Source of the DNA: Methylophaga nitratireducenticrescens
GTDB lineage: Bacteria > Pseudomonadota > Gammaproteobacteria > Nitrosococcales > Methylophagaceae
Length of the DNA stretch: 64,000 nucleotides
Direction: 5' to 3'
NCBI RefSeq assembly: GCF_000260985.4
Contig: NC_017857.3
Span: 1,488,001 to 1,552,000, forward strand
A model generated the notes under the pieces. That model was not told where the DNA came from. It did no database searches and saw only the letters and a list, made by a program, of their open reading frames with translations. Positions within the stretch are counted from its first letter, which is position 1. Each line of letters opens with the position of its first letter. A program made the position numbers and the translations under genes. Shown in pieces: positions 4,298 through 33,010 of this stretch.

Positions 4298-4661
4298 AAT
4301 TTTTCCCGTATTTTTCTCAGCGAATAGCCAATGATAGGTAAATGTTGATAAAAACCATCCACACCATCCCAGAAATCTTGGTGAAAAATGATTTGACCCT
4401 GTTTATTAAAACGTAATTGACTTATACCGATGGATTCGCTGTTTACCTGTTTTCCCATCACCGTAAATTGCAATCGCATGATCCATCGAACATAAAAGTC
4501 GTGTTCACCTCGGGCCACATCTTGCACCTGAGCTTCCAGCCAATCCACCTGCTGCCCGGTTTGTTGTAGATAGTCAACCAGTTCATTTCTATCAGTGATG
4601 GTCCTAAAGGTATCGTTGAAATAAAGTTGTTCAGTATAGTTTTCATGAACGATCTTCGCTA

Positions 4662-5497
4662 GATAGTGTCGTCACGAAACATTGAGCCAGAGTACCAAGC
4701 ATCTGATCTGCACGGCAGCCAAAAAGGACGCCAGATTCTTGGCATAGCGCGTCGCAATGCCGCGCCAACGCTTGAGATGCAGAAAGGCATTTTCAACCAG
4801 GTGGCGCTGCCGGTAGAGATGTCTGTCGTATTCACGTTGCGTCTTCCTGTTCTTTCGCGGCGGGATGACCGCTTGCATCCCCCGGTTTTTTGCTTTCTCA
4901 ACAATGGCATCGCTGTCGTAACCCTTGTCGGCAATCAAGTGCTGTGCTTCAAGGCCATCAATCAATGCGTCAGCTTGAGAGCAATCCGCTCGGGTAGCCT
5001 CTGTAGCAATAATTCGGACCGGCATACCATGCGCATCCACGGCCAGGTGTACCTTGGTGTTGAGCCCCCTTTTGTGCGGCTCATCCCCTGATTGCCGCCT
5101 CGTGCGCCCGCCGCATGAGGATGAACCTTGCAGTGACTGGCATCAATCATCAGCCACTCATAGTCGGGCTCATCAATTAGGCATTCCAGCAGCGCCTCCC
5201 ATACCCCCCGATCTCGCCAGCGACAGAAGCGCCGGTGGGTGTTCTTCCAATCTCCGTAACTGGCGGGCAGGTCTCGCCAGGGCGCTCCCGTGCGCAGTAT
5301 CCAGAACACCGCGTCAATGAACTGCCGGTTGTTGTGCGCAATGCCGCCCCATTGGCCGCGCTGTCCCGGGAGGTGCGGCTCCAGCAGTGCCCAGGTTGCA
5401 TCCGAAATGTCATGTCGTCGCGTGCTCTCCATCATCGAAAATACCTCGCCCAGATTGATTTGAGGGCAATTATAACAAATCCCGTGACGACAGTATC
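4662..5497 (-). mobile_element. IS5-family (IS427-type) insertion sequence, 836 bp
   Basis: Imperfect 15-bp terminal inverted repeats (GATAGTGTCGTCACG at 4662, complement of GATACTGTCGTCACG ending at 5497) are flanked by a TA on each side, consistent with a TA target duplication. The size, the two overlapping transposase frames and the short duplication match the IS427 group of IS5. Base composition is clearly more GC-rich than the neighbours, indicating recent arrival. It carries a full-length frameshifted transposase and looks intact, inserted in the NTF2-like gene. Confidence 0.92.
4672..5435 (-). CDS. IS427-type transposase, made by -1 frameshift
   Basis: Two overlapping frames: OrfA 5435-4962 (starts MMESTRRHDISDATW, first catalytic Asp in LMIDASHCKVH) and OrfB ending at 4672 (second Asp in DKGYDSDAI, Glu in RHLVENAFLHLKRW, the Y-R-E-K signature). 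An AAAAGGGGG run on the minus strand (5065-5073) lets the ribosome slip -1 and join RTKGG to LNTKVHLAVDAHG, the usual sequence of this group. The OrfB stop lies inside the left inverted repeat. All DDE residues are present, so activity is plausible. Confidence 0.88.
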
Positions 5498-5967
5498 TAA
5501 TTCGCTATGCTGAATCCGATTAAAAATACGCATAAAACCAGTGATGGTCTGATGGGTACCTAGTGGTTGCGACGCTAGTGAATCCAGGGCTTTTGGGTAG
5601 TTGTTAACATAGCTACTTTGCATAGATTTTCCATTACCAGCCACTATAAAAATGATTAAAGGTAATAACCACGTCAATTTTGTGACAAGAATATTCATTA
5701 ACATGGTGTAATTTTCCGATGAACTAAATTCCTGTCTCATCAGAACGTAAAGATTGTGAAAGTGGGGTGAAGGCTGGGGCTATTTTTTGTGGCTTACTGC
5801 GGTCAATCGGTGATGTTGATGTCTACACTACCAGCTTTTCCTTTCTCGGACGCAAAAATAGTTGCCAGCAGTTGATGGTTATGAAGGATAAACAATCCAC
5901 GGTAACTCTTCACATGCAATTCACACTTTGCTGACTAAGCTAACCACCATTAAAAAAGAGACATTTG

Positions 5968-6900
5968 ATGAAATTTATTCGACATTGGTTTGATAATGGT
6001 GAACCCCGGGTTTCTTCTGCTGAGTATGACAAGTCAGATACTGGTGTTGACTGGCTCAGAGTCATTCCTTTTATCGTGATGCATTTGGCTTGTCTGACCG
6101 TTTTATTTGTGGGCGTTTCCACTGTTGCTGTTGTTACGGCAATAACATTATATTTATTGAGAATGTTTGCCATAACAGCATTTTATCATCGTTATTTTTC
6201 ACATAAAGCCTTTAGAACTTCGCGAAAAATCCAATTTATCTTTGCCTTGATTGGCGCCAGTGCAACACAACGAGGCCCTTTATGGTGGGCGGCACACCAT
6301 CGTCAGCATCATCGCTATGCAGATCAGCCTGCCGATCCCCATTCCCCCAAGCAGGGCTTTTTTTGGAGTCATATGGGCTGGTTTCTTTCAGGAAAACATT
6401 ATCAGGCTGATTATAATCTGGTTCAAGACTGGAAAAGATTTGTCGAGCTACGTTGGCTGGATCGGTTTGATTTAATTGCTCCGGTTCTATTGGCTTTAAC
6501 CTTATTTATCTTTGGTGTATTACTGGAAAAGTTTGCACCCGAATTGAAAACCAGCGGTTGGCAAATGTTAGTGTGGGGCTATTTCATTTCAACGGTAGTG
6601 TTATTACACGTCACGTTGTTGATAAATTCCATGGCGCACCGAATTGGTAAAAAACGATACACAACAAACGATGAAAGTCGTAATAATTTTCTGTTGGCAT
6701 TACTTACTCTAGGAGAAGGTTGGCACAATAATCACCATCATTACCCGGCTTCCGCCAGACAAGGCTTTTATTGGTGGGAAGTCGATGTAAGTTACTACTT
6801 ATTAAAGCTAATGCAAAAATCAGGGCTCATCTGGGACGTTCGCACGGTGCCACTTCATAAACGTGATTCCAAGAAAATCATTCCGGAGGCTGATTTATGA
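5968..6900 (+). CDS. Membrane fatty-acid desaturase (acyl-CoA/acyl-lipid delta-9 type)
   Basis: 310 residues, di-iron integral-membrane desaturase. Three histidine boxes are visible: HRYFSH (74-79), HRQHH (111-115) and HNNHH near residue 250, with hydrophobic segments at about 33-70 and 165-215. It introduces a double bond using O2 and an electron donor. I chose ATG 5968 (preceded by AAGAGA) over the TTG one codon earlier. The 227 bases upstream separate it from the divergent NTF2-like gene and must hold both promoters. Its stop overlaps the next start by 4 bases, so it heads a tightly coupled lipid operon. Confidence 0.92.
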   Translation: MKFIRHWFDNGEPRVSSAEYDKSDTGVDWLRVIPFIVMHLACLTVLFVGVSTVAVVTAITLYLLRMFAITAFYHRYFSHKAFRTSRKIQFIFALIGASATQRGPLWWAAHHRQHHRYADQPADPHSPKQGFFWSHMGWFLSGKHYQADYNLVQDWKRFVELRWLDRFDLIAPVLLALTLFIFGVLLEKFAPELKTSGWQMLVWGYFISTVVLLHVTLLINSMAHRIGKKRYTTNDESRNNFLLALLTLGEGWHNNHHHYPASARQGFYWWEVDVSYYLLKLMQKSGLIWDVRTVPLHKRDSKKIIPEADL

Positions 6901-8159
6901 AGATTGCGATTGTGGGGGCAGGTATTTCGGGTTTGACCTCCGCGTATTATCTGGCAAAGCAACACGACGTGACGGTGTTTGAAGCGAGTAATTATCTTGG
7001 CGGTCATACCGATACCCATTTAGTCGAGGTATCCGGAAGGGCCTTTCATGTGGATACCGGTTTTATTGTTTTTAATGAACAGAATTATCCAAACTTTAGT
7101 AAGTTACTGCAGCAATTGGGCGTAGCGAGTCAGCCTACAGAGATGAGTTTTAGCGTGAGCAACACAAGTTCAGGTCTGGAATATAACGCGACGGATCTGA
7201 ATAAATTATTCTGTCAGCGTCGTAATCTGCTGAATGTCCGTTTTTATCGAATGTTATGGGATTTGGTGCGATTTTATCGTGCGGCTCCTTTACTATTAAA
7301 TGAAGAGGATGATGGTCTTACGCTAGGTCAATATCTGGCTGTTAATAATTACAGTGATATTTTTATTAATGATCATCTCATTCCAATGGCCTGTGCTTTA
7401 TGGTCTGGCCCCAGTCTTTCAGTAGTGGATTTTCCAGCACACTATTTTATTCGTTTTATGCATAACCACCATATGCTGTCGTTAACGGATCGCCCTCAAT
7501 GGCGGGTAGTTAAAGGTGGTTCAAAGACTTATGTTGACGCGCTGGTACAGCAGAGCAATGCAGAATTTATGACGGGTTCTCCAATTCATCGTATAGAACG
7601 CAGTAATCAAGGTGTGACCATAACAGTGCATGGCGAAAATTATCAATTCGATAAAGTGATTATTGCCGCCCATGCAGATCAAGCGCTTCGCATGTTGGAT
7701 CAACCTACTGAAACCGAAGTCGCTGTTTTGGGAGGCATCGGCTTTCAGCATAACGAAATGCACCTGCATACGGATAGCAATATGTTACCGGAAAATCCTT
7801 TGGCATGGGCCAGTTGGAATGTCCGGGTAGGGCCAGAGTTACAGCAGCAATGCACAGTGAGTTATCACATGAATACGCTGCAAAGTCTGGATATTCCAGC
7901 AGAGCTTATCGTGTCGTTAAATTCCGGACATCTTATTGACCCCAAAAAAGTCTTGGTGCAGCGACGTTATGCACATCCGATTTATAATCTTTCAACACTC
8001 AACGCCCAACGTCGCTGGCAGGAAATTATTGATACGCAAAATACGTTTTATTGTGGAGCCTATTGGGGCTGGGGATTTCATGAGGATGGAGTCAGGAGTG
8101 CATTGAGAGTTATCGCTGCTCTTGAAAATACTCAGCAGGGAGGCATTAATGTTACCTGA
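6897..8159 (+). CDS. FAD-dependent oxidoreductase (amine-oxidase-like, COG2907 type)
   Basis: 420 residues with an N-terminal dinucleotide-binding fold (IVGAGISGLTSAYYLAKQ, then the ribose-binding Glu in TVFEASNYLGGHTDT) and a C-terminal FAD-contact region (YCGAYWGWGFHEDG). Members of this family sit beside DUF1365 and CFA-like methylases in many Proteobacteria. An FAD protein of such a cluster is used in furan fatty acid synthesis in Rhodobacter sphaeroides (recalled precedent). The substrate here is presumably a membrane fatty acyl chain; that is inference. It starts on the ATGA overlap with the desaturase and overlaps the next gene by 11 bases. Confidence 0.88.
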   Translation: MKIAIVGAGISGLTSAYYLAKQHDVTVFEASNYLGGHTDTHLVEVSGRAFHVDTGFIVFNEQNYPNFSKLLQQLGVASQPTEMSFSVSNTSSGLEYNATDLNKLFCQRRNLLNVRFYRMLWDLVRFYRAAPLLLNEEDDGLTLGQYLAVNNYSDIFINDHLIPMACALWSGPSLSVVDFPAHYFIRFMHNHHMLSLTDRPQWRVVKGGSKTYVDALVQQSNAEFMTGSPIHRIERSNQGVTITVHGENYQFDKVIIAAHADQALRMLDQPTETEVAVLGGIGFQHNEMHLHTDSNMLPENPLAWASWNVRVGPELQQQCTVSYHMNTLQSLDIPAELIVSLNSGHLIDPKKVLVQRRYAHPIYNLSTLNAQRRWQEIIDTQNTFYCGAYWGWGFHEDGVRSALRVIAALENTQQGGINVT

Positions 8160-8937
8160 TGGAATTTATCGTGGATGGGTGCATCATCAGCGCCATTTGC
8201 CAAAAAATCATGCTTTTCAGTATCCACTGGCAATGCTGATGCTGGATCTGGATGAACTGCAATCCCATTTTAAACGCTCGCGTTTCTGGTCTTTGGAGCG
8301 CTTTAATCTGATCAGTTTTTACCGTAAGGATTATCTGCAATCCGACCTGGCTGATTTGAAACAGGCAGTGGTGGAGTTAATACAGCAACGCAGTGGTGAG
8401 TCATTCTCAGGTACGGTAAAGATCCTTACGCATCCACGTTATCTCGGGTTTATATTTAACCCAGTGACATTTTACTTCTGTTTCGAGCAGCAACAGCTTA
8501 AGTTTATTGTTGCTGAAATCAACAATACGCCGTGGAATGAACGTTATGCCTATGTATTGAAAGTGAATCAGCAACAAAGTCAGCCGTGGCGTTTTGTTTT
8601 TGATAAACAGTTTCATATTTCACCGTTTATGCCGATGGATATTCAATACCACTGGCGTTTTCAACTGGAACAAGATGCCATCAATATCAACATGGTGTTG
8701 ATGCGTGAGGGAGAACGCCAGTTTGATGCGACATTACAGACTGACTTCCAGCCAATGACCGCCAGAAGCATGCGTTGGTTACCGATTCGCTATCCGCTAC
8801 AGACACTCAGAGTGGTAATGCGCATTTATTGGCAGGCATTACGTTTATGGGGAAAACATACTCCTTCTTTCAGTCATCCCGATCAGCAGGCCGATAGTGT
8901 GACCCAACCTGTAATACGTCAAGAGGATGATAAATGA
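8149..8937 (+). CDS. DUF1365 family protein
   Basis: 262 residues. I chose ATG 8149 (MLPDGIYRGWVHHQRHLPKNHAF) because AGGGAGG lies just upstream and the family begins with the short G-x-V-x-HxR motif; an upstream TTG would add nine residues. The core HPRYLGFIFNPVTFYFCF and the ending region with SMRWLPIRYPLQTLRV are typical. The biochemical role is not established; genomically it is tied to the FAD oxidoreductase and the CFA-like methylase that flank it here, with overlaps of 11 and 4 bases. Confidence 0.88.
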   Translation: MLPDGIYRGWVHHQRHLPKNHAFQYPLAMLMLDLDELQSHFKRSRFWSLERFNLISFYRKDYLQSDLADLKQAVVELIQQRSGESFSGTVKILTHPRYLGFIFNPVTFYFCFEQQQLKFIVAEINNTPWNERYAYVLKVNQQQSQPWRFVFDKQFHISPFMPMDIQYHWRFQLEQDAININMVLMREGERQFDATLQTDFQPMTARSMRWLPIRYPLQTLRVVMRIYWQALRLWGKHTPSFSHPDQQADSVTQPVIRQEDDK

Positions 8938-10196
8938 ATAAATCGGCCGTCATTGAAAAACAAAATGGCAAACCCAGCCGACTGTCGAAACTGTATGAAA
9001 AAGCGGTTATCAGTCAGCTGGGCAAGATTCAAAAAGGCTGTATTCATTTACATACAGCAAGTGAAGTTTATGAATTAGGCGATCCACAGGCCGATCTATC
9101 GATTAGTCTGACCGTCAATGAGCGGCGCTTTTTTGAAGCTGTCGTGCAAGGCGGCAGCGTCGGTGCTGCAGAGTCTTATATGCAGGGTGATTGGCATTGC
9201 AGTGAGCTAACCACTTTGATAAGAATTCTGGTTCGTAACCAGTCATTGACGGATGAACTTGAACAGGGCTTTGCCAGAATTACCGGTGCCTTATTAAAAG
9301 GCTTTCACTGGCTTAATCGTAATAGCCGAAGAGGTAGCCGCAAGAATATCGCTGCCCATTACGATTTGGGGAATGAGTTATTTGAGTTATTTCTGGATAA
9401 AGACTGGATGATGTATTCGTCCGGATTGTATTACAGCGGTAATGAATCCCTTGAAACTGCGCAACAGCAAAAGCTGACGAGATTGTGTGACAAGCTGAAT
9501 TTACAGCCGACAGATCATCTGCTGGAGATTGGTACGGGTTGGGGTGGTTGTGCGGTATTTGCTGCTCAGCATTATGGTTGCAGAGTCACAACAACGACCA
9601 TTTCACAGCAACAATATGATTATGCTGTTCAGCGTGTGGCAAAAGCGGGCCTCACTGATCAGATAACAGTATTGCTTGAAGATTATCGTGATCTGCAAGG
9701 GCAATATAACAAGCTGATTTCGATTGAAATGGTCGAGGCGGTGGGGCATCACTATATTGATAATTATTTTCAGCGTTGTGCCGACTTATTAACCCCAGAT
9801 GGTCTGGCCATCATTCAAGCGATTACGCTGGAAGATCACCGTTATGCCCAGGCAGTAAAATCAGTGGATTTTATCAAGCGGTATATTTTCCCAGGCAGCT
9901 TTATCCCCAGTGTCACCGTGCTGAGTAATGCTGCTGCCAAAGCCAAGCTGAAACTCACCAGCCTTGAAGACATTGGCCCAAGCTACGCGATTACTCTGGC
10001 CACTTGGCGGGAACGTTTTAACGCTTCGCTGGACAGAGTTCGCGCCATGGGGTATCCGGATTCATTTATTCGGATGTGGGAGTTTTATCTTTGCTACTGC
10101 GAAGGTGGTTTTGCCGAACGCAGTATCAGTGACGTGCACTTATTATTCAGTAAAGCCGATAACCGGCGTCCCCAGTGGTGTCCAGCATATGCCTGA
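8934..10196 (+). CDS. CFA-synthase-like SAM-dependent fatty-acyl methylase
   Basis: 420 residues of the cyclopropane-fatty-acyl-phospholipid synthase family (COG2230). The N-terminal substrate-binding domain holds GAAESYMQGDW; the SAM site is LEIGTGWGGCAVFA. Compared with E. coli Cfa, the active-site Cys is replaced (MYSSGLYY instead of YSCAYW) and the bicarbonate-ligand His is replaced by Gln (IIQAIT instead of LLHTIG). These are the changes seen in UfaA1/TmsB-like methylases, which add a methyl or methylene group without closing a ring. The methyl acceptor is probably a monounsaturated phospholipid chain; the exact product cannot be read from sequence. Confidence 0.9.
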   Translation: MNKSAVIEKQNGKPSRLSKLYEKAVISQLGKIQKGCIHLHTASEVYELGDPQADLSISLTVNERRFFEAVVQGGSVGAAESYMQGDWHCSELTTLIRILVRNQSLTDELEQGFARITGALLKGFHWLNRNSRRGSRKNIAAHYDLGNELFELFLDKDWMMYSSGLYYSGNESLETAQQQKLTRLCDKLNLQPTDHLLEIGTGWGGCAVFAAQHYGCRVTTTTISQQQYDYAVQRVAKAGLTDQITVLLEDYRDLQGQYNKLISIEMVEAVGHHYIDNYFQRCADLLTPDGLAIIQAITLEDHRYAQAVKSVDFIKRYIFPGSFIPSVTVLSNAAAKAKLKLTSLEDIGPSYAITLATWRERFNASLDRVRAMGYPDSFIRMWEFYLCYCEGGFAERSISDVHLLFSKADNRRPQWCPAYA

Positions 10197-10731
10197 TCGT
10201 CTGACGATAGTTAATTTTTTACTGTTTCAAATCGGTTGGTTTGTCTGTGTATTAAGCGGGGCCGCGGAGTTGAATTCACCGGCCGTTATTTTTACCGTCG
10301 CCCTTTTGATCTTTCATTTTCGTTTTTATCGCTGGAAACAGACTGATTACAAACTGGTGCTGGCGGCAATTGTAATCGGTGTCGTGCTGGATTCCAGTTG
10401 GTCAGCCTGGAATTTAATGGCTTATCAAGCTCAAACTATTGAACCGATTGCACCCTGGTGGATTTGGTGTTTATGGATAAACTTTGCGTTAACCCTTAAC
10501 CACTCGCTGTCATGGTTATTAAAACGTCGGGTGATGGCGGGAATATTTTCGGCGGTTGCCAGTCCTGTTTCATATTATGCAGGCAGTCGTTTAGGTGCAC
10601 TAGACTGGCTGCAACCAGAAATATTAATCGTAGTGCTTGCCATTAGCTGGGGACTGGCAATTCCATTATTACTGACATTGGCTATTTACTGGCGCAATCA
10701 GGAATCAGGAAAACAACATGCTGTGGTTTAG
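10189..10731 (+). CDS. DUF2878 integral membrane protein
   Basis: 180 residues, strongly hydrophobic with about six membrane segments and conserved Trp-rich loops (VLDSSWSAWNL, APWWIWCLWINFALTLNHS). I place the start at ATG 10189 (MPDRLTIVNFLLFQIGW), overlapping the methylase stop by 8 bases; the longer open frame upstream runs through the methylase gene in another frame and is not real coding. DUF2878 proteins recur in CFA-like lipid clusters; function unknown. It overlaps the following gene by 14 bases. Confidence 0.83.
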   Translation: MPDRLTIVNFLLFQIGWFVCVLSGAAELNSPAVIFTVALLIFHFRFYRWKQTDYKLVLAAIVIGVVLDSSWSAWNLMAYQAQTIEPIAPWWIWCLWINFALTLNHSLSWLLKRRVMAGIFSAVASPVSYYAGSRLGALDWLQPEILIVVLAISWGLAIPLLLTLAIYWRNQESGKQHAVV

Positions 10732-12514
10732 TCTTTTCATTGTGTCTTTAATAATGCTTGGCGGTTGGTTTTGGCAAATTCTCAGTAAAAATGCTGGAAT
10801 TGTCGACGTGTTGTGGGCTTTTTCATTAAGTTTTCTGGCTTTGTTTCATTTGCTGACTAGTGAGGGCTATTTGCCTCAGAGCATCATGGCATCGGGCATC
10901 ATGCTGCTTTGGTATTTGCGTTTGGGAACACACCTCGCACAAAGGGTGTTAGGCGAAGATGAAGATGGACGATATAAATACCTAAGACAGTACTGGGGCG
11001 CTAAAACCAATTTTTACCACTTTTTCTTTTTCCAGTTTCAGGCTTTATTGGCTTGGGGATTTGCCATTCCAGTCTGGTTTATTAATCAGGGACAGATTGA
11101 AACTTTAGGACTCGCTCAATATGCCGGTCTTGTTGTCGCCATTATTGCCATTACCGGGGTCACTGTTGCGGATAAGCAATTAGCCAATTTCAAGGCCGAC
11201 CCGAAAAATAAAGGTGAAGTCTGTGAAACAGGCTTGTGGAATTATTCCAGACATCCGAATTACTTTTTTGAGTGGTTGCACTGGTTTAGCTATCCCTTAA
11301 TGGCGATTGGCATCGAACACGCAGCGTGGCTCTGGTTGGCGCCATTAGTGATGTTGTTATTTCTGTATTTCATAACCGGCATACCCTACACCGAACAACA
11401 CGCAATCCGCAGTCGTGGGGATAAATATCGTCGCTATCAACAAACAACCAGTGCATTTATTCCCTGGAGAAAAAAAAATATGAGTCTGATCACTATCGCT
11501 GAAAAAGGACTGATACCTGACATGTTAGTAAGAGTTGGCATTCGCATGCTGCTTAAGCAACGCCTGCAAGATGAAAAGGCCTATGATCTGCAAGCCGCCA
11601 GTGAAATCAAAAATCAATGCATGGAAATGCTACGAAACAGTCCGATTGCGATAGAAACCCAGGCGGCTAATGAACAACATTACGAAGTACCAGCCGAATT
11701 TTATCAGCTGACTTTAGGCAAACATCTCAAATACAGCGGTTGTTGGTGGGATGATTACACCATCTCGCTGGATCAGGCTGAAAAGGCCATGCTCGATATT
11801 TATCTCGAACGGGGTGATTTCAAAAACGGGCAGGATATTCTTGAACTCGGTTGTGGTTGGGGATCGCTTACGTTGCATCTGGCTGAGCGGTTTCCGTATT
11901 CACGGATCACAGCTGTATCTAATTCTGACTCACAGCGGGAGTTCATTGAAAAACAGGCGTTTGCCCGTGGATTAACGAATATTCGTATCATTACCTGTGA
12001 TGTCAATAAACTGGAACTGAACACGCAGTTTGACCGGATTGTCTCGATAGAAATGTTCGAGCATATGCGTAATTATCAGCAGCTGCTCAACAATGTAAGT
12101 TGCTGGTTAAAGTCTGACGGCAAGCTTTTTGTACATATTTTCTGTCATCGAAATGTTGTCTATCCTTTCGAAACTGAAGGGGATGATAATTGGATGGGAC
12201 GTTACTTTTTTACAGGTGGATTGATGCCTTCAGCAGACACGTTATTGCATTTTCAGGATGCTCTGCAGATTGAAAAGCAATGGTTGGTCAATGGTCAGCA
12301 TTACCAGAAAACAGCCGAAGCCTGGCTGAAAAATACGGATAAAAATGCCAGACAGATTAAAGCACTGTTTGATCAAACCTACGGTAAAGGTGAGGGCGCT
12401 ATCTGGCTACAACGATGGCGTTTGTTCTTTATGGCCTGTGCTGAATTATTTGGCTATCACGATGGAACCGAGTGGTTGGTAACACATTATTTATTTGCCA
12501 AGAGAGTAAACTGA
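10718..12514 (+). CDS. DUF1295 membrane domain fused to CNMT/CFA-like methyltransferase
   Basis: 598 residues. Residues 1 to about 250 are a DUF1295 domain (steroid-5-alpha-reductase/ICMT-like fold, several membrane segments, NYSRHPNYFFEWLHW and RGDKYRRYQQTTSAFIPW motifs). Residues 255-598 are a SAM methyltransferase (LELGCGWGSLTLHLAE) resembling plant coclaurine N-methyltransferase and bacterial COG2230 relatives (FVHIFCHR, RYFFTGGLMPSADTLLHFQD). The junction is an A9 run (11470-11478) followed at once by an in-frame ATG (11480) with GGAG ten bases before it. With one A fewer the first domain would stop at TGA overlapping that ATG, so these may be two genes joined by one base, or a slippage site. 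Substrates unknown. Confidence 0.82.
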   Translation: MLWFSLFIVSLIMLGGWFWQILSKNAGIVDVLWAFSLSFLALFHLLTSEGYLPQSIMASGIMLLWYLRLGTHLAQRVLGEDEDGRYKYLRQYWGAKTNFYHFFFFQFQALLAWGFAIPVWFINQGQIETLGLAQYAGLVVAIIAITGVTVADKQLANFKADPKNKGEVCETGLWNYSRHPNYFFEWLHWFSYPLMAIGIEHAAWLWLAPLVMLLFLYFITGIPYTEQHAIRSRGDKYRRYQQTTSAFIPWRKKNMSLITIAEKGLIPDMLVRVGIRMLLKQRLQDEKAYDLQAASEIKNQCMEMLRNSPIAIETQAANEQHYEVPAEFYQLTLGKHLKYSGCWWDDYTISLDQAEKAMLDIYLERGDFKNGQDILELGCGWGSLTLHLAERFPYSRITAVSNSDSQREFIEKQAFARGLTNIRIITCDVNKLELNTQFDRIVSIEMFEHMRNYQQLLNNVSCWLKSDGKLFVHIFCHRNVVYPFETEGDDNWMGRYFFTGGLMPSADTLLHFQDALQIEKQWLVNGQHYQKTAEAWLKNTDKNARQIKALFDQTYGKGEGAIWLQRWRLFFMACAELFGYHDGTEWLVTHYLFAKRVN

Positions 12515-12518
12515 GTCG

Positions 12519-13820
12519 ATGGCCAGGTCCAATACAAATCTTCATGCGAAACTGGTTAAAGTTTTTTTAATACAAATAGCATTAATCAGTGTGGTGGCTA
12601 TCGCCGGAATCTATGCTGCAAAAGCTACCCTTGAAGATGTATTGGTGCGTGCTGCTCTGGAGGGTGAAGCCCAGCATTTCTGGGAGATGCGTGCAGAAGA
12701 TCCCGCATTTCCATTACCCAACACCATGAACCTTAAAGCTTACATGGCAGAAGGGAATAATTATTCTCAGTTACCACAGGCTTTGCAAGACCTTGGGCCA
12801 GGCTTGAAGCGTGCTGAGCTGGCAGGGCAGCAACCCATTGTCTATGTTGAGGATAAGGGGGACCGCCGGTTATATCTAATCTTTGATGAAGTAAAAGTAT
12901 CTCGACTGGCATTGGTCTTTGGCTTATTACCTTTAGGTATGGTTTTGATAGTGCTTTATCTGTTGGCTTGGATTGCCTATCGCCAATCACATAAGGCGGT
13001 TTCACCGATAATGAAATTATCACGGGCAGTTAATGATGTCGATTTTCAGGAAGGTAATTTTCCTCAGCTGGATTTAGATGATCTGCGCAGTATACCGGAT
13101 GATGAAGTTTCAAGTCTGGTCCGGGCCTTGGATGAATTTACCAATCGTCTGGAAAATTTTGTTGAACGCGAACGGAATTTTACGCGTGATGTCAGTCATG
13201 AATTACGTACCCCAATAGCTGTAATCCGTGGGGCATTGGAACTGGTTGAAAGAAAATATGATGCTCAGGCAGTGACAGAAATGAACCGTATGTATCGTAC
13301 GCTGACGGATATGGAATCATTGATTGAAACCCTGCTGTTGTTAGCCAGAGAGCAGGTTGAGGCATTGCCTTTACGTGAAGTGACTGTTAATAATTTGATC
13401 GCCGCGGAACTGGATAATCTGCAAATGATTCATCATGACAAACCTATCACGGTAAATGTTGAAGAATCGGGTATTTTAATCGTGCTGGCTGCTGAACGCG
13501 TGTTACCGATTCTTATTGGAAATCTACTGCGTAATGCCTTTAATTACACCCTGCGGGGCAATATTACAGTGTCTATCCGAGCAGACGGGTTTTCGGTTGC
13601 TGACAGTGGAATCGGGATGGATCGAGATCAAGTGAAAAAAGTTTTTAAACCTTTTTTTCGTGCTGATGAAAAACAACAAACAACAGGCTACGGTATCGGC
13701 ATGACTATAGTGAAACGGTTATGTAATCGCTATGAGTGGAATCTTCGCTTATCCAGTAAAATGGGGGAAGGCACGGAAGTCAGTGTGCATTTCCCAAAAG
13801 CACAGTTTCGTAGCCGTTAA
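12519..13820 (+). CDS. Sensor histidine kinase
   Basis: 433 residues. Membrane segments at about 12-34 and 130-152 bracket a periplasmic sensor of about 95 residues; a HAMP-like linker follows. The HisKA box is FTRDVSHELRTPIAVIRG (phospho-His), and the ATPase has the N box (LIGNLLRNAFNYT), G1 (VADSGIGMD) and G2 (GYGIGMTIVKRL). It begins 4 bases after the fusion gene, so it is probably transcribed with the lipid operon. Its likely partner regulator lies tail-to-tail 12 bases downstream on the other strand. The signal is unknown; a membrane-state or lipid signal is a guess from context. Confidence 0.9.
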   Translation: MARSNTNLHAKLVKVFLIQIALISVVAIAGIYAAKATLEDVLVRAALEGEAQHFWEMRAEDPAFPLPNTMNLKAYMAEGNNYSQLPQALQDLGPGLKRAELAGQQPIVYVEDKGDRRLYLIFDEVKVSRLALVFGLLPLGMVLIVLYLLAWIAYRQSHKAVSPIMKLSRAVNDVDFQEGNFPQLDLDDLRSIPDDEVSSLVRALDEFTNRLENFVERERNFTRDVSHELRTPIAVIRGALELVERKYDAQAVTEMNRMYRTLTDMESLIETLLLLAREQVEALPLREVTVNNLIAAELDNLQMIHHDKPITVNVEESGILIVLAAERVLPILIGNLLRNAFNYTLRGNITVSIRADGFSVADSGIGMDRDQVKKVFKPFFRADEKQQTTGYGIGMTIVKRLCNRYEWNLRLSSKMGEGTEVSVHFPKAQFRSR

Positions 13821-13832
13821 CCTAAATAAGCT

Positions 13833-14531
13833 CTATAGATCTTCTTCTCTGCAAAGCTTATAACCCACACCTGGTAGGGTATGCATTAACTGATTCTTGA
13901 AAGGTTTATCCAGATTTTTCCTCAGATTGTATAAGTGACTCCGAAGCGTATCACTATCGGGTGCATCATCCCCCCAGACTTCAGCTTCCAACCGTTCACG
14001 ACTGACAATTTTTGGCGATTCGCGCATCAGAATCCGCAGGATGTGCAGGGTTATCGGAGACAGCTTGATAAGCTTATCGCCACGCATAACGCGCATGGTA
14101 TCAAGGTCGAAGCTAAGATCGGCCACCGTTAACTTTCCACCTTCGAGCTCCCCCCTTTGACGCCTGATCATTGCAATAAGCCTGGCTTCGAGTTCACGCA
14201 TTTCAAAAGGTTTTATCAAATAATCATCTGCACCTAAATCAAAACCGTTCACCTTGTCATTAATGGTGTCACGAGCCGTCAACATGATGATCGGGGTATG
14301 TCGGTGCATTTCCTGGCGTAATCTGCGGCAGACTTCAAAGCCATCAATACCGGGAAGCATTATATCGAGGACGATGGCATCGTAATGGTGTTCTTCACAC
14401 AATTGCAATGCCGTAATACCATCCGTTGCAAAATCAACGGTAAAACCGCCCACTTCCAGATAATCCCCTACATTAGCAGCTAGATCCCGGTGATCTTCAA
14501 CAATTAATACTGTCGCTGATATTGTTTTCAT
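13833..14531 (-). CDS. OmpR-family response regulator
   Basis: 232 residues. The receiver domain has acidic residues in VEDH, the phospho-acceptor Asp in AIVLDIMLPG and the conserved Lys in DYLIKPF. The C-terminal winged helix shows LSPITLHILRILMRES, SRERLEAEVWG and LRSHLYNLRKNLDKPF. It is convergent with the histidine kinase gene, 12 bases apart and without an obvious terminator, an uncommon arrangement for a cognate pair. Pairing is inferred from adjacency. Its own promoter must lie in the 160 bases shared with bfd. Confidence 0.9.
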   Translation of the reverse strand: MKTISATVLIVEDHRDLAANVGDYLEVGGFTVDFATDGITALQLCEEHHYDAIVLDIMLPGIDGFEVCRRLRQEMHRHTPIIMLTARDTINDKVNGFDLGADDYLIKPFEMRELEARLIAMIRRQRGELEGGKLTVADLSFDLDTMRVMRGDKLIKLSPITLHILRILMRESPKIVSRERLEAEVWGDDAPDSDTLRSHLYNLRKNLDKPFKNQLMHTLPGVGYKLCREEDL

Positions 14532-27762: not shown

Positions 27763-28782
27763 ATGTCGGATAAGCAGCAATTAGCTACTGCTCGTGAACA
27801 TGCATTGGCACTGGAAAAGGTTGTCAATAATGTGGTGATTGGTCAGCAGCAGGCGATTCGTTTGATCCTGATCGCACTGCATGCTCGCGGCCACGTATTG
27901 CTTGAAGGTGGCGTCGGGGTTGGGAAAACTACCTTGTTACGCGCTTTTTCCAAAGCATTGGGTGGTGCATTTGGCCGTATCGAAGGTAGTGTGGATTTAA
28001 TGCCTAACGATCTGCTTTACAGTGCCTGGGTAAATGCTGATGGTAAACCGGTCATCGAACCTGGCCCGCTGATTGCCAAAGGTGAAGAAACAGCGGTGTT
28101 TTTCTTTAATGAAATCAACCGGGCACGTCCCCAAGTCCAATCACTGCTGCTTAGAGCGATGGCAGAACGTAGTGCTGAAGCATTTGGTAAAGAGTATCGT
28201 TTTCCACATATGATCGTTTTTGCGGATCGTAATGCGGTGGAAAAAGAGGAAACCTTTGAGCTGAGCGCTGCTGCAAGAGATCGCTTCTTATTTGAGATTA
28301 ATATCAGTCGTCCACTTGAAGATGAACAGCGCCGTAAATTAATTTTTGATCCGGCGTTTCATGATGTGGATGAATTGCTGAGTTCAATTGGAGCTCCGCT
28401 GTTAAATTATCGCGATTTGAATGCTCTGGATCGAGATATTCAAAACAATATTTATGTTTCTCCGGAAATTGAAAATTATGTGGTTCGCCTGTGGGATGCC
28501 AGCTGGGAACCTCATAAACTCGGTATTACGTTGCCTGATGTTTATGTAGAAGATCTGGTGGTTGCCGGCGCCAGTGTTCGTGGTATGTCTGCAATGGTGC
28601 GTGCGGCCAAGGTTTGTGCCTGGCTTGAAGGACGGGATCATGTCCTGCCGGACGATATTCACTTTGTACTACTGCCATCACTGACCCATCGCATATTCCT
28701 GTCACCGGTTTATGATGGCCGTCGTGAACAGTTGATGCCGCAGTTTGTACAGGCGTTACGTGATCATATCGCTACGCCGTAA
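27763..28782 (+). CDS. mxaR: MoxR-type AAA+ ATPase MxaR
   Basis: 339 residues. Walker A is EGGVGVGKTTLL (about 48-57), Walker B and the sensor region are in FFFNEINRARPQVQSLLLRAMAE, and the arginine-finger area is ELSAAARDRF. MoxR ATPases act with vWA proteins as chaperones; MxaR is needed for active PQQ methanol dehydrogenase. It begins the mxaRSACKL operon, with a strong ribosome site (AAAGGGGAGAGAGA). The mxaFJGI structural genes are not adjacent. Confidence 0.92.
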   Translation: MSDKQQLATAREHALALEKVVNNVVIGQQQAIRLILIALHARGHVLLEGGVGVGKTTLLRAFSKALGGAFGRIEGSVDLMPNDLLYSAWVNADGKPVIEPGPLIAKGEETAVFFFNEINRARPQVQSLLLRAMAERSAEAFGKEYRFPHMIVFADRNAVEKEETFELSAAARDRFLFEINISRPLEDEQRRKLIFDPAFHDVDELLSSIGAPLLNYRDLNALDRDIQNNIYVSPEIENYVVRLWDASWEPHKLGITLPDVYVEDLVVAGASVRGMSAMVRAAKVCAWLEGRDHVLPDDIHFVLLPSLTHRIFLSPVYDGRREQLMPQFVQALRDHIATP

Positions 28783-28794
28783 GCGGGCATCATT

Positions 28795-29679
28795 ATGAAG
28801 CCTATTCAACCTCAGGAATTTAGCTACCGCTTTCCAGACAAGGTTTTCGGTCATGTGCCAGGCGCGCATAACGGAACCGCAATGGGAAGTGGCGACCGTT
28901 TTGCCGGTTTTGCCGATTTGTTTGATTATCCCGATCCACGGCGTCTGGATGTGCGTGCCAGTTTACGCACCAATATTGCTGATTCCGCTTTAGGCAATCA
29001 GGAACGCTGGCTAGTAAGACGTTATCAGCAACGCTCGTCTATTACCTTATGGTTACTTGCCGACTTAAGCCGATCAATGTCGGTTTCCAGTGTCAGTAAT
29101 GAACGGGTGGCCAGGCTCGCACATATGATTGCTCACAGCTCTATTGGCTTTGGCGATCGATTTGCCATGGCTGGTTTTGATGCGGTATGGCGAAAAGATG
29201 TTTCCGTAATGCCAACAAGACAACGCAGTATGCCTGCTGTTGCAGCCGGAAAAATTATTCAGGCCACTGCACCTTCAGCACCTGGAGCTGCGGGTTTATT
29301 TGATGTGGCAGATTTAATTACCAGTCCTAAAGCCATGGTGTTTCTTGCGTCAGACTTTTGTTGTGATATTGATCTGGTTGATCGCACTTTACGTAAGTTG
29401 GCGCATTACACGGTGATACCTATTGTCTGGCAGCATGATGAAGTGGATCATCTGCCTTCACATGCCGGTTGGACCGAAACCCGGGATTCTGAGACCGGAA
29501 AACGACACAGCGTATGGATCCGTCCAGGTATCAAAAAACGTTGGCAGCAGCAATTGGATGAACATTTTGAGAAATTGACGGCCTGTTTTATGCGTTATCG
29601 GGTTAAGCCGCTTTTTGTCTCTGGAGAAGTCACCCCACAACAGTTGACCCAGTATTTCTCCGCCATGAAAAAATCATAG
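28795..29679 (+). CDS. mxaS: DUF58 protein MxaS
   Basis: 294 residues with the DUF58 core (LGNQERWLVRRYQQRSSITLWLLADLSRSMS), a vWA-like fold in which DLSRSMS supplies the metal site. It acts downstream of the MoxR ATPase in methanol dehydrogenase maturation. It is 12 bases after mxaR and 11 bases before mxaA. The order R-S-A-C-K-L matches the classic mxa cluster of methylotrophs. Confidence 0.9.
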   Translation: MKPIQPQEFSYRFPDKVFGHVPGAHNGTAMGSGDRFAGFADLFDYPDPRRLDVRASLRTNIADSALGNQERWLVRRYQQRSSITLWLLADLSRSMSVSSVSNERVARLAHMIAHSSIGFGDRFAMAGFDAVWRKDVSVMPTRQRSMPAVAAGKIIQATAPSAPGAAGLFDVADLITSPKAMVFLASDFCCDIDLVDRTLRKLAHYTVIPIVWQHDEVDHLPSHAGWTETRDSETGKRHSVWIRPGIKKRWQQQLDEHFEKLTACFMRYRVKPLFVSGEVTPQQLTQYFSAMKKS

Positions 29680-29690
29680 GAATGCACACA

Positions 29691-30530
29691 ATGCGCCGTT
29701 GGATCTTCATTTTCAGTTTTATTTTCAGCAGTCAGCTCATGGCACAAGATGTGACTATTAAGATGGATCGTAGTTGGGGTCTGTTGATAGGTGACATCGT
29801 AAATGCCAGTATTGTCCTGCCGGTAAGTGTCAGTGATATTGATGCTGACAGTTTGCCGCAATTGAACAAACGTCATGGGCCATGGCTTAATCTGTTGCAG
29901 ATTTCCAGTAACAGTAATGTACTTGAGCTGCAGTATCAGTTGGTGAATGTTCCTGCTGAAACACGTACATTACAGACTCCATCCTATACATTGAGAACCA
30001 ATGCGGGTCAGTTGCTGAATATTCCACCAGCCGAGTTTTCTGCCGGATCATTTTTAAATGCAACAGATAAAAATGCGACAGAAATGACCTTGCGAAGGGA
30101 TCAGCGTTTACTGCCTGCAGACTTTAGTACGTTAGAAAATCAACGGACTTATGCCATTGCCGTCGCTTTGATTACGGCACTTATCTGGCTCGTCTGGCAT
30201 ATCGGCTTGCGTCCTGGAAAACGTTTGCCGTTTGCTAAAGCAGTATTGTCGATGAATAAGTTACGCTGGTTTGGCCATAAAGATGTCGATGGTGCTACAC
30301 GTGTTATGCATCATGCATTTAATGATAGTGCCGGTACCGTGGTGATTTACAGTCAGCTACAGCAATTGTGGGATGCTTGTCCGTGGTTAGCTGATTTACA
30401 GCCAGAAATAACCCGGTTTTACCAGCAGTCAGCATCACATTATTTCAGTCGCGATTCTCAGCAAAATGCAGATTTTGACAGTTTAATTAAACTGGCTCGT
30501 TCCTGCCGGGCGAGGGAGAAAATGGCATGA
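29691..30530 (+). CDS. mxaA: Methanol dehydrogenase maturation protein MxaA
   Basis: 279 residues. ATG 29691 is chosen because AGGA lies nine bases before it; ATG 29682 is too close to that site. A signal peptide (MRRWIFIFSFIFSSQLMAQ) leads into a periplasmic domain, a membrane helix (about 145-167, IAVALITALIWLVWHIGL) and a cytoplasmic tail. MxaA, MxaK and MxaL are required for calcium incorporation into methanol dehydrogenase in Methylobacterium. It overlaps mxaC by 4 bases. Confidence 0.85.
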   Translation: MRRWIFIFSFIFSSQLMAQDVTIKMDRSWGLLIGDIVNASIVLPVSVSDIDADSLPQLNKRHGPWLNLLQISSNSNVLELQYQLVNVPAETRTLQTPSYTLRTNAGQLLNIPPAEFSAGSFLNATDKNATEMTLRRDQRLLPADFSTLENQRTYAIAVALITALIWLVWHIGLRPGKRLPFAKAVLSMNKLRWFGHKDVDGATRVMHHAFNDSAGTVVIYSQLQQLWDACPWLADLQPEITRFYQQSASHYFSRDSQQNADFDSLIKLARSCRAREKMA

Positions 30531-31543
30531 TGCTGTTTGGTCTCGAATGGGCTTTTCCTTTTGTACTGTTGTTATTACCGATGGTGTTATTGCCATGGTT
30601 TAATAATAATCTGGATAAAACAGTGGCTTGGACAGCATTGGTGCCACATGATCCGTTATCCCGAACCATTAGCCTGACACTAAAAGTTTTATCTTCCGTG
30701 GTAATTGCTGCCTTATTATTAGCGGTTGCCAGCCCTGCCATTCCGGAACGTACGGTAGAACGATTTGGTGAGGGTGCCGAAATTGTTTTGCTGCTGGATC
30801 GCAGTCGCAGTATGGATGATGCGTTTGCTGTGACTACTCAGGCTGCCAATTATGCAGTTGGAGGCGATAATTCCAAGCGCCGTGTTGCCCGAACCTATTT
30901 GACTGAATTTGTTAAAAAACGACCGGATGATCGTTTCGGCTTTGTCTTTTTCAGCACCAACTCCATTAACCTCTTGCCATTGACCTATAGCAAGGAAGCA
31001 ATTCTTGCCACCATTGAAGCGAATTCACTAGGCAAAGGTTTGTCTGATACCAATTTGGCTGATGCCCTGATGAATTCGGCATTAATGTTTGAGGACCAGC
31101 CCTACCGCGGTTCACGAATTGTTTTGCTGGTATCGGATGGTGGTCAGTTAATGACTGATGAAGCCATGGAATTAATCACCAAACGTTACAAGGAGATGAA
31201 TCTGAGTATTTACTGGATATATCTCAAAGCCAGACAGGGCATGACACTGGAACCGTCGGAAAATGACAATATTCTTTATACCGATCTGCCCGAGCGGAAA
31301 GTTCATGAGTTTTTCAAAAGTATCGGTATTCCTTACCGGGCCTTTGAAGCGGGTTCGCTAGAAGAGTTTGCAGCGGCGATGGATGAAATTGACGAGCAGC
31401 AATACCAGACATTGATTGTGGAAGAGCTGGTGCCACATGAACCCAAGTCTGACTGGTTTTTATGGTTAGCGTTGCTCGCCATGTTGCCATTGGCAAGTTC
31501 ACATCTATACAGTTACTGGGGAGTTCGAAAAGCGCATGAGTAA
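30527..31543 (+). CDS. mxaC: vWA-domain membrane protein MxaC
   Basis: 338 residues. Membrane helices lie at about 5-24 and 50-72, then a vWA domain with the metal-ion-dependent adhesion site LLLDRSRSMDDAF and LVSDGGQLM, and a final membrane helix at about 310-330. It is the fourth gene of the maturation operon, overlapping mxaA (4 bases) and mxaK (8 bases). Its exact role in methanol dehydrogenase assembly is not established. Confidence 0.88.
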   Translation: MMLFGLEWAFPFVLLLLPMVLLPWFNNNLDKTVAWTALVPHDPLSRTISLTLKVLSSVVIAALLLAVASPAIPERTVERFGEGAEIVLLLDRSRSMDDAFAVTTQAANYAVGGDNSKRRVARTYLTEFVKKRPDDRFGFVFFSTNSINLLPLTYSKEAILATIEANSLGKGLSDTNLADALMNSALMFEDQPYRGSRIVLLVSDGGQLMTDEAMELITKRYKEMNLSIYWIYLKARQGMTLEPSENDNILYTDLPERKVHEFFKSIGIPYRAFEAGSLEEFAAAMDEIDEQQYQTLIVEELVPHEPKSDWFLWLALLAMLPLASSHLYSYWGVRKAHE

Positions 31544-32075
31544 CACATTAAAATTATTACGCTGGGTGTTACTGTCGATTTTTGTTATCAGCATTGTTGT
31601 AATGTTGTTTTCAAATTGGCAGCTATGGCAGCAAAAACGAATTGAAGCCTTTGTTATTGCACCTGAACAATATAAAACAATTCCGGATCATCCTCGGGCA
31701 CATTTTGCTCAAGGTCACTATCTGGTCGAACACGACGAGAATGATGCAGCTTTAGAACAATACACGTTGGTTCTTGGCAGCCAGCAAGCAGAATGGTTAC
31801 CGGCTGCCTATTTCAATCGCGGTAACATCAATTTGCGTGAAGCGATGGCAATGGATGGCGATGATCCGCAGATGATTCCACTGGTTGAATTAGCTAAACA
31901 GGATTATCGCAGTGCATTGAAGCAACAGCCGGAGTTCTGGGATGCTCGTTTCAATCTTGAAGTGGCACTACGCTTAGTTCCCGAAGATCCTGAAGCAGAG
32001 ACTAATTTAAAAAAGCAGGAAATTTATAGCGAACGCAGTATCGAAACCAAGGCATTCAAGGTTGATTTGCCATGA
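31536..32075 (+). CDS. mxaK: MxaK, membrane-anchored TPR-like protein
   Basis: 179 residues. A single N-terminal membrane helix (LLRWVLLSIFVISIVVMLF) is followed by a periplasmic TPR-like region (HFAQGHYLVEHDENDAALEQYTLVL; AAYFNRGNINLREAM; ARFNLEVALRL). MxaK participates in calcium insertion into methanol dehydrogenase with MxaA and MxaL. It overlaps mxaC by 8 and mxaL by 4 bases. Confidence 0.85.
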   Translation: MSNTLKLLRWVLLSIFVISIVVMLFSNWQLWQQKRIEAFVIAPEQYKTIPDHPRAHFAQGHYLVEHDENDAALEQYTLVLGSQQAEWLPAAYFNRGNINLREAMAMDGDDPQMIPLVELAKQDYRSALKQQPEFWDARFNLEVALRLVPEDPEAETNLKKQEIYSERSIETKAFKVDLP

Positions 32076-33010
32076 GCTTGAGTTATCCAAAACGGATATT
32101 TTTGACCGCATTGGTCATGTTAATCAGTTTGTTAATGATAATGGCGGCGCTGTGGTTACCAGAGGTGGATCGTGAAATAGAGGTGATGGACAGTTTGTTT
32201 GTCATTGATATAACGGACAGTATGAATGTGGAAGATGCACGATTTGGTAAGCAAACCATTAATCGATTGGAGTGGGCCAAGGAGTATACCCGACAGTCAA
32301 TTTTGAGTATGCCGTGTGGTTCTCATGCTGGCTTGGCGATTTTTAGTGAAGCGCGCAGTCTGATTCTGATGACGCCGGTCGAAGTTTGTACCAATTATCA
32401 TGATCTGATGCAGATGCTGTCGCAGTTTCATCCAACAATGGCGTGGGCCCGCTCCAGTGAAGTGTCTAAAGCTCTGTATACATCGATTCGTCAGGCCAAA
32501 GAAATTACACCACAGCCAACAGTGGTTTTTTTAACCGATGGTCATGAGGCCCCCCCAGTTCATGAAAAACTTTTCCCCAAGTTCACTGATACACCTGGTG
32601 AAGTACCAGGGGTAATCGTCGGTATTGGTGGAAGCGATTTAGTGCCTATTCCTAAAACGAATGAGTTTGGTGAAATAGAAGGGTATTGGGAAATAAATGA
32701 GGTCATGCATAAAGATGTCTATGCCTCAAGTCGTGGAGATGCGGCTGAATTAAATAATAACCGTCCACGCACAGAACATTTATCGTCGCAGAAGAAATCT
32801 CATATGGAAACAGTTGCCAGACGAATTGGATTTGAATTTATCTCCTCGCCTAAATCTCCACAGCATCTGATCAAAGAAATGCAGAAAATTTCTGATAGTC
32901 GCCAGCAACCAGTGAAATATGATTTATTTGTCTGGCTGGCAACCATTGCTTTGATTTTATTGGTGTTAGTCTTTTTACCCTACAATCTGTTCGCGAACCA
33001 ACATGATTAA
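32072..33010 (+). CDS. mxaL: vWA-domain membrane protein MxaL
   Basis: 312 residues. It has an N-terminal membrane helix (about 8-30), a vWA domain with the metal site VIDITDSMNVED and FLTDGHEAPP, and a C-terminal membrane helix (LFVWLATIALILLVLVFL). It is the last gene of the operon. mxaD, mxaE, mxaH and mxaB, which follow in Methylobacterium, are absent here. No clear terminator was seen after it. Confidence 0.88.
   Translation: MSLSYPKRIFLTALVMLISLLMIMAALWLPEVDREIEVMDSLFVIDITDSMNVEDARFGKQTINRLEWAKEYTRQSILSMPCGSHAGLAIFSEARSLILMTPVEVCTNYHDLMQMLSQFHPTMAWARSSEVSKALYTSIRQAKEITPQPTVVFLTDGHEAPPVHEKLFPKFTDTPGEVPGVIVGIGGSDLVPIPKTNEFGEIEGYWEINEVMHKDVYASSRGDAAELNNNRPRTEHLSSQKKSHMETVARRIGFEFISSPKSPQHLIKEMQKISDSRQQPVKYDLFVWLATIALILLVLVFLPYNLFANQHD

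Follow-up and report, generated by a model that had tools for sequence, protein, structure and literature searches.

The stretch analysed here (hereafter the window) comprises 64,000 nucleotides of the genome of Methylophaga nitratireducenticrescens, probably a marine methylotroph, whose 3.135 Mb sequence is a single contig (NC_017857.3, positions 1,488,001 to 1,552,000). At positions 5968-12514 it carries six open reading frames (ORFs), all on the same strand and overlapping head to tail, which together appear to encode a pathway for furan fatty acids (FuFAs). A preliminary description of this DNA had listed six overlapping genes, for a di-iron desaturase, a flavin adenine dinucleotide (FAD) oxidoreductase, DUF1365, a CFA-like methylase, DUF2878 and a DUF1295-methyltransferase. 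Its domain assignments hold, matching Pfam domains being found above cut-off in each of the six ORFs, as do the places, strand and overlaps; the gene count does not, since the last ORF corresponds to two genes in all 19 relatives compared and the unit runs on into a sensor kinase gene. The features are as follows.

5968-6900, + strand: SCD-type membrane fatty acid desaturase, first gene of the operon (Pfam PF00487, 76.5 bits)
6897-8159, + strand: UfaD-like FAD desaturase/dehydrogenase (PF01593; Rhodopseudomonas match at 39-42% identity)
8149-8937, + strand: UfaO-like DUF1365 protein, predicted furan-forming oxygenase (PF07103, 272.8 bits)
8934-10196, + strand: UfaM-like methylase of fatty acyl chains rather than a cyclopropane synthase (PF02353; S139/A240/Q266; UfaM branch)
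10189-10731, + strand: DUF2878 protein (PF11086, 131 bits)
10718-11479, + strand: DUF1295 protein, steroid-reductase/isoprenylcysteine-methyltransferase-like (PF06966, 221.8 bits; PF02544, E 1.8e-7)
11470-11478, + strand: poly-A run of nine A that joins DUF1295 and MT2 in frame (from comparison with relatives)
11480-12514, + strand: MT2, a FufM-like, coclaurine-N-methyltransferase-like methyltransferase dependent on S-adenosylmethionine (SAM), predicted to carry out a second furan-ring methylation (PF02353; match to 6gkv)
12519-13820, + strand: sensor histidine kinase (PF00512/PF02518)
13833-14531, - strand: OmpR-type response regulator, convergent, the presumed kinase partner (PF00072/PF00486)

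The ATG of the kinase gene lies 4 bases past the MT2 stop codon, so that the operon extends into the kinase gene, which is therefore probably part of the same transcript. Judged from the sequence comparisons, the natural gene count is seven plus the kinase, not six. For the DUF1365 gene an ATG is the likely start. A scan of the operon for promoters and terminators gave signals within the spread of shuffled sequences.

The core of the operon can be compared with a published pathway. According to the available text of Lemke et al. 2020 (PMC7380195), UfaM methylates cis-vaccenate to 11Me-12t-18:1, the FAD desaturase UfaD converts this to 11Me-10t,12t-18:2, and UfaO, a DUF1365 protein, introduces oxygen from O2 to give 9M5-FuFA; Rhodopseudomonas palustris makes 9D5-FuFA with RPA2571-2570-2569 plus FufM (RPA0924). 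The window has matches to UfaD, UfaO and UfaM in its FAD protein, DUF1365 protein and first methylase, which supports the furan reading that the preliminary description had drawn from Rhodobacter sphaeroides. Four Rhodopseudomonas genomes, reached via a marker gene, each hold a single gene matching the window UfaD (39-42% identity), and in the three whose surroundings were examined UfaO- and UfaM-type genes come next, the order of the window. The window's FAD protein, with this homologue, adjoins the DUF1365 and UfaM genes, and the protein lying between UfaD and UfaM is the sole DUF1365 match in the genome. The core ufaDOM furan pathway is thus, on homology, very probably present.

The first methylase is, like the Cfa of E. 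coli and that of the host itself, a member of the CMAS family, but the Cys139, His240 and His266 that are intact in Cfa are changed here. Aligned to E. coli Cfa (reference letters checked against PDB 6bqc), it shows C139 replaced by S (MYSSGLYY) and H266 by Q (IIQAIT); both the serine for the active-site cysteine and the glutamine for the bicarbonate-binding histidine had been noticed beforehand and are real, and a further change, H240 to A, had gone unmentioned. Glu239, Ile268 and Tyr317 are retained. Overall identity is 36-38% to Cfa (E. coli and own genome) and 39% to the one Rhodopseudomonas UfaM compared. In Cfa the residues of the bicarbonate site hold bicarbonate, which would remove a proton from the new methyl group and so close the ring; in a UfaM lacking His266 and His240 a chain proton would be lost instead, leaving a methyl group and a shifted trans double bond. 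From the loss of the bicarbonate-site residues we infer that no ring is closed and that the UfaM product, itself published, is formed.

We defined S139/A240/Q266 as a signature from relatives and surveyed 115 further CMAS-type ORFs from the fetched loci, assigned by best match (62 MT2, 42 UfaM and 11 Cfa; matches of under 180 reference residues were dropped). A240 and Q266 occur in 42/42 UfaM-type ORFs and S139 in 38/42, while Cys139, His240 and His266 occur in 11/11 Cfa-type ORFs, many of these rows being close kin and hence not independent. A tree of 45 methylases (44 of the 119 CMAS-type rows plus one plant coclaurine N-methyltransferase, CNMT) places 19 UfaM-type rows, the window and three Rhodopseudomonas orthologues included, on one side of a branch with support 100/99.8; E. 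coli Cfa, three Cfa from the genus, one Rhodopseudomonas Cfa-like gene and the MT2 rows fall outside it. The methylase does not, therefore, group with true cyclopropane synthases, and signature and tree together speak strongly against that function for it. A separate true Cfa is encoded at position 415480 of the genome, about 1.08 Mb from the furan operon; in nine relatives from the genus the true cfa instead lies just past a ferritin-like gene (named from sequence) downstream of that operon.

As read, the last ORF (10718-12514, PF06966 plus PF02353) joins DUF1295 to MT2. In the same-genus relatives examined the two are separate overlapping genes in every case (0/19 fused), and the fusion, confined to the host genome, is caused by one extra base at the poly-A run, which reads A9 in the host versus GG then A7 in the nearest relative. 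Because the run is one base longer than in relatives, none of which is fused, the ORF is probably two genes, and a genuine DUF1295-MT2 fusion as a new enzyme is disfavoured. The extra base may be a sequencing error or a true recent mutation. MT2 has kept its own ATG at 11480 with GGAG upstream, and therefore both the fused and the separate reading could be expressed. One relative has another single-genome fusion of neighbours, UfaM and DUF2878 forming one ORF of 627 amino acids (9212-11095 of its locus).

MT2 is the second METHYLTRANSFERASE of the operon. It is closer to a coclaurine N-methyltransferase than to CFA (282 bits to 6gkv versus 104 bits to the best CFA). Each of the four Rhodopseudomonas genomes has one match at 47-49% identity, directly preceded by a DUF1295 gene that is 38-40% identical to that of the window, and in the tree the window MT2 and the DUF1295-adjacent Rhodopseudomonas methyltransferase share one branch (100/100). 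Besides that match, the MT2 query picked up other CMAS-type genes, two in each of three genomes and one in the fourth. Of the three CMAS-type genes of Rhodopseudomonas sp. BR0M22, the Cfa-like one shares 33% identity with UfaM over 356 residues and the MT2-type one 29% over 216 residues; the corresponding values against R. sphaeroides UfaM, in the available text of Lemke et al. (PMC7380195), are 38% for RPA3082, which had no effect, and 26% for RPA0924, that is FufM, and RPA0923 and RPA0924 were deleted there singly and together. As the MT2-type gene is the least UfaM-like, just as published for RPA0924 versus RPA3082, MT2 appears to be FufM-like, by elimination in a sister species of R. palustris. 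A second methylation is thus a likely predicted function of MT2. The suggestion of a different or longer pathway in the preliminary description can accordingly be kept in part: the pathway would be longer, by a FufM-like second methylation, and its core is not different. That description had identified neither the DUF1365 protein with UfaO nor the second methyltransferase as FufM-like.

The leading gene encodes a desaturase with the His boxes HRYFSH, HHRQHH and HNNHHH. Only two PDB sequences matched it, the acyl-CoA desaturases 4ymk and 4zyo (best 116 bits), which we take to be mouse and human SCD1. Across 20 operon desaturases, the window's included, boxes 1 and 2 are present in 20/20 and box 3 in 19/20, the exception being truncated. 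A second PF00487 protein in the genome is unrelated to it by BLAST. The presence of fabA rules out the desaturase as the sole source of unsaturation; there is an even chance, by our estimate, that its predicted role is dedicated precursor supply, and it may act on a later intermediate. An IS5-family element inserted at 4660-5499 has inverted ends of 17 nt, and its transposase is divided between two frames; it separates a chalcone-isomerase-like gene from the desaturase gene, whose start is 468 bases away. It is absent from three aligned relatives and may affect the promoter region of the operon. The chalcone-isomerase-like protein (PF16036, 3761-4297) is encoded divergently from the operon; such genes are neighbours of ufaD at 26 of 79 gammaproteobacterial loci, and occur also in Acinetobacter, Cupriavidus and Burkholderia plasmid clusters.

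The gene order desaturase-ufaD-ufaO-ufaM-DUF1295-MT2 is kept in all 18 same-genus loci (15-20 kb), which excludes a chance arrangement. Kinase and regulator are kept in 17 of these, the eighteenth stopping at a contig end. DUF2878 has an ORF of its own in 17 of the 18 loci; in the remaining one it is read in frame with ufaM. MT2 was found at an identity of at least 67% in 20 of 23 genomes of the genus, one copy being cut by a contig end, and in 0/11 genomes from other genera of the family.

Control by sigma-E/ChrR can be ruled out for this operon, as ChrR is without a match anywhere in the host genome (TIGR02451; Caulobacter matched among 14 control genomes). The linked kinase and response regulator would fill the place that sigma-E/ChrR has elsewhere. 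On an Acinetobacter plasmid the corresponding operon has its kinase and its convergent regulator, respectively 29% and 45% identical to those of the window, at the same places, and a sigma-E-type gene is nearby instead in five gammaproteobacterial loci; we infer that the sensor has been exchanged and the enzymes kept.

Among 398 evenly drawn Pseudomonadota genomes MT2 is present in 33, host included, a count that leaves aside one weak match (E 5e-31) whose locus has a UfaM-like gene instead. For the 32 MT2 loci other than the window's, the fetched stretches contain DUF1295 in 21 cases, ufaD in 19, ufaO in 19, ufaM in 14 and a sigma-E-type gene in 11; six have the full set with desaturase, five of these with a sigma-E-type gene nearby. 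UfaD (E of at most 1e-60) occurs in 79 of 274 gammaproteobacterial genomes, and its neighbourhood was surveyed at 79 matches other than the window's own, from 78 genomes. Nearby are ufaO in 74, ufaM in 71, DUF2878 in 28, MT2 in 22, DUF1295 in 19 and a desaturase in 22, of which 18 have it immediately ahead of ufaD; 12 loci hold desaturase, ufaO, ufaM, DUF1295 and MT2 together, and since 12 of the 79 loci are shorter than 12 kb, absences in those are weak. MT2 and DUF1295 occur together in 17 of the 22 MT2-bearing loci. A lipocalin gene accompanies DUF1295, 13 of the 14 lipocalin-bearing ufaD loci also having DUF1295, and is possibly a lipid carrier for the product. The furan operon pathway is more widespread than its literature suggests.

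Two operon styles seem to exist at ufaD, one with SDR/NTF2/DUF3833 and one with desaturase/DUF1295/MT2. Over the 79 loci desaturase and MT2 are both present in 15, desaturase only in 7, MT2 only in 7 and neither in 50 (Fisher p 2.4e-6, kinship ignored); for SDR and MT2 the counts are both 1, SDR only 36, MT2 only 21 and neither 21. In a UfaD tree of 75 rows the desaturase/DUF1295/MT2 style falls mostly in one or two clades, and repeated independent gain tying desaturase to MT2 is unsupported by independent pairs. We therefore claim a conserved architecture only.

Taken together, the predicted function of the locus is a one-operon route that converts fatty acids of membrane phospholipids to dimethyl FuFAs, a reading we consider probable. 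The steps were shown for Rhodobacter and Rhodopseudomonas enzymes and are assigned here by homology. UfaM would add a methyl group from SAM at the cis double bond, as in cis-vaccenate, to give 11Me-12t-18:1; UfaD, with FAD, would form the 10t,12t diene; UfaO would insert oxygen from O2, yielding the monomethyl 9M5-FuFA; and the FufM-like MT2 would methylate this to a dimethyl, 9D5-type FuFA. In addition to what FabA provides, the SCD-type desaturase would form further cis monoene precursor in membrane lipid when needed, DUF1295 and DUF2878 would be putative pathway partners, and the pathway would probably act under O2-linked stress.

Several observations weigh against this reading. The UfaM branch emerges among Cfa-type rows, its nearest neighbour being the Rhodopseudomonas Cfa-like gene (on a long branch), and four of the 42 UfaM-type ORFs lack Ser139 (two have Cys and two Ala). 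The window UfaO is only 30-32% identical to the Rhodopseudomonas gene at the UfaO place. The identities used in the elimination, 29% and 33%, are close together, and the FufM assignment runs via a sister species, not RPA0924 itself. MT2 was not found in 3 of the 23 same-genus genomes, those being 82-89% complete. With fabA present the desaturase is dispensable for cis monoenes, and a tree-aware test of linked gain of desaturase and MT2 (74 of the 79 loci plus the window, five having been dropped for a UfaD ORF under 300 amino acids or a locus under 8 kb) gave three supported pairs in which nothing was seen, so that the co-occurrence is mostly shared descent. Finally, fufM alone sufficed in R. 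sphaeroides, in the available text of Lemke et al. (PMC7380195); DUF1295 was therefore not needed there for ring methylation.

Of the alternatives, one is that the pathway continues past 9D5-FuFA, the desaturase or DUF1295 acting on the furan or methyl-diene to give, for instance, furan acids with an olefinic side chain or reduced furan acids. This would fit the position of the desaturase at the head of the operon in a host that has FabA, and its association with DUF1295-MT2 operons (of the 18 loci in which a desaturase immediately precedes ufaD, 15 carry MT2); it would also fit the resemblance of DUF1295 to reductases. SCD-type enzymes, however, usually act on saturated chains, and with the desaturase-MT2 co-occurrence owed mostly to descent we regard this continuation as unlikely. 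Rather unlikely, too, is that only monomethyl FuFA is made and that MT2, with DUF1295 as its partner, methylates another substrate such as a lipid head-group amine. The closest solved relatives of MT2 are N-methyltransferases, acting on amines, and MT2 also occurs apart from ufa genes (13 of 32 MT2 loci are without ufaD in the fetched stretch). Against this, each of the four Rhodopseudomonas genomes has one MT2-type gene, and ufa and fufM genes are apart in R. palustris too, so that distance between MT2 and ufa genes is no objection. FufM itself has a CNMT-like relative, as we take At4g33110 (LIME1) of Arabidopsis to be. The identity between the two is 37.9%, and At4g33110 is a SAM-dependent methyltransferase, as given in the available text of Omata et al. 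2024 (PMC10940516).

The weak similarity of DUF1295 to steroid reductases (E 1.8e-7) could also be taken to mean that the UfaM product is reduced to a methyl-branched, non-furan fatty acid; since the window has the furan-forming UfaO (DUF1365), which also accompanies ufaD at 74 of 79 loci, such an end product is highly improbable. For ordinary cyclopropane fatty acid synthesis speaks that both methylases match Pfam CMAS, and an observation on E. coli overexpressing a Halomonas ufaM was counted for it as well, E. coli having its own cfa. Signature and tree put the methylase outside Cfa and the genome has its own Cfa, which leaves this explanation next to negligible.

Beyond the one-operon route to dimethyl FuFAs, we tentatively raise a wider and rather doubtful possibility, namely a fully O2-dependent route of its own. 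In it the SCD-type desaturase and DUF1295 would both be genuine pathway enzymes, determining chain position or taking the product past 9D5-FuFA (e.g. to olefinic furan acids), and the gene set would have been passed among marine gammaproteobacteria and plasmids with the sensor swapped (kinase or sigma-E). If so, dimethyl furan acids would enter marine food webs directly from marine methylotrophs. Furan fatty acids are radical scavengers found in fish, plants and microbes; Shewanella, Marinomonas and other bacteria of fish guts and the sea are reported to make them, in the available text of PMC3528120.

Compared with known systems, what is new here is a complete, probably dimethyl, desaturase-led and kinase-linked operon, the ufaDOM/fufM furan pathway being known. 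R. palustris resembles the window in the order of UfaD, UfaO and UfaM, and its relatives in having DUF1295 before the MT2/FufM-type gene; in Rhodopseudomonas, however, the fufM-type gene is apart from ufaDOM, and no desaturase, kinase or DUF2878 match was found in stretches of 12-15 kb around either locus. Rhodobacter (Cereibacter) sphaeroides has the proven core enzymes, ufaM (RSP2144) and ufaD-ufaO (RSP1091-1090), but its ufaM is separate, the operon carries SDR and other genes, and its singlet-oxygen genes come with rpoE-chrR, whereas the host genome lacks ChrR; its own product is 9M5-FuFA, and fufM has to be supplied before 9D5 is formed (PMC7380195, available text). The plasmid of Acinetobacter sp. 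WY4 (NZ_CP053948) shares the layout desaturase-FAD-DUF1365-CFA-DUF1295-MT-kinase with a convergent regulator; it differs in being mobilizable and in having no DUF2878 listed, and is annotated by domain names only. SDR-type ufa operons of a Klebsiella plasmid and of Aeromonas salmonicida share the FAD-DUF1365-CFA-DUF2878 core, but have NTF2-SDR upstream and partly DUF3833 downstream, replacing desaturase and DUF1295-MT2. In Halomonas sp. YLGW01, as far as the available text goes, ufaM, ufaD and ufaO are consecutive and ufaM in E. coli gave 11-methyl-octadec-12-enoate, but no FufM-type methylase or operon desaturase is reported.

Among the matches listed from the open-access literature, most subscription papers lying outside that scope, none describes a desaturase-led or kinase-linked FuFA operon. 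In the literature surveyed, as far as its available text goes, R. palustris is the one bacterium with proven genes for dimethyl FuFA, and its ufaDOM and fufM lie at separate loci. In the window all steps to the dimethyl product appear within one operon with a linked sensor kinase, which would make a compact cassette for heterologous production, and DUF1295, DUF2878 and the desaturase can now be tested as pathway members.

The gene set also has a eukaryotic counterpart. The available text of PMC4067076 lists CFA1, CFA2, a DUF1365 and a DUF1295 among the SAK1-dependent genes induced by singlet oxygen in Chlamydomonas, and another of its tables gives CFA2 as CPLD27, a coclaurine N-methyltransferase. 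Among the papers listed as mentioning DUF1295, it alone appears relevant to the operon. This co-induced set matches the bacterial one, DUF1295 included, and the algal 'CFA' genes may therefore, by analogy, serve furan rather than cyclopropane acids.

An alignment of 84 UfaO/DUF1365 proteins has H13 as the sole invariant His, with R15, N126, Y135, K153, S158, P159, Y167 and A230 as further invariants, and none of the cysteines of the window protein is retained at 90%. For an enzyme using O2, a classical metal-ligand set is thus not evident in the conserved residues. A single-sequence structure model of UfaO had a mean pLDDT of 36 and was unusable.

Elsewhere in the window, ectoine-type genes with a linked aspartokinase (named from sequence) lie at 37-2843. 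Five genes of the genome score above the cut-off for pyrroloquinoline quinone (PQQ) alcohol dehydrogenases, and the best match of the MxaF-type gene among them is PDB 5xm3 (1149 bits, next 1010), presumably from Methylophaga aminisulfidivorans. Together with the ectoine-type genes, this points to Methylophaga as the probable genus. A MoxR ATPase gene and von Willebrand-type genes stand in a row at 27763-33010, which, judged from sequence, reads like a methanol dehydrogenase maturation (mxaRSACKL-like) cluster.

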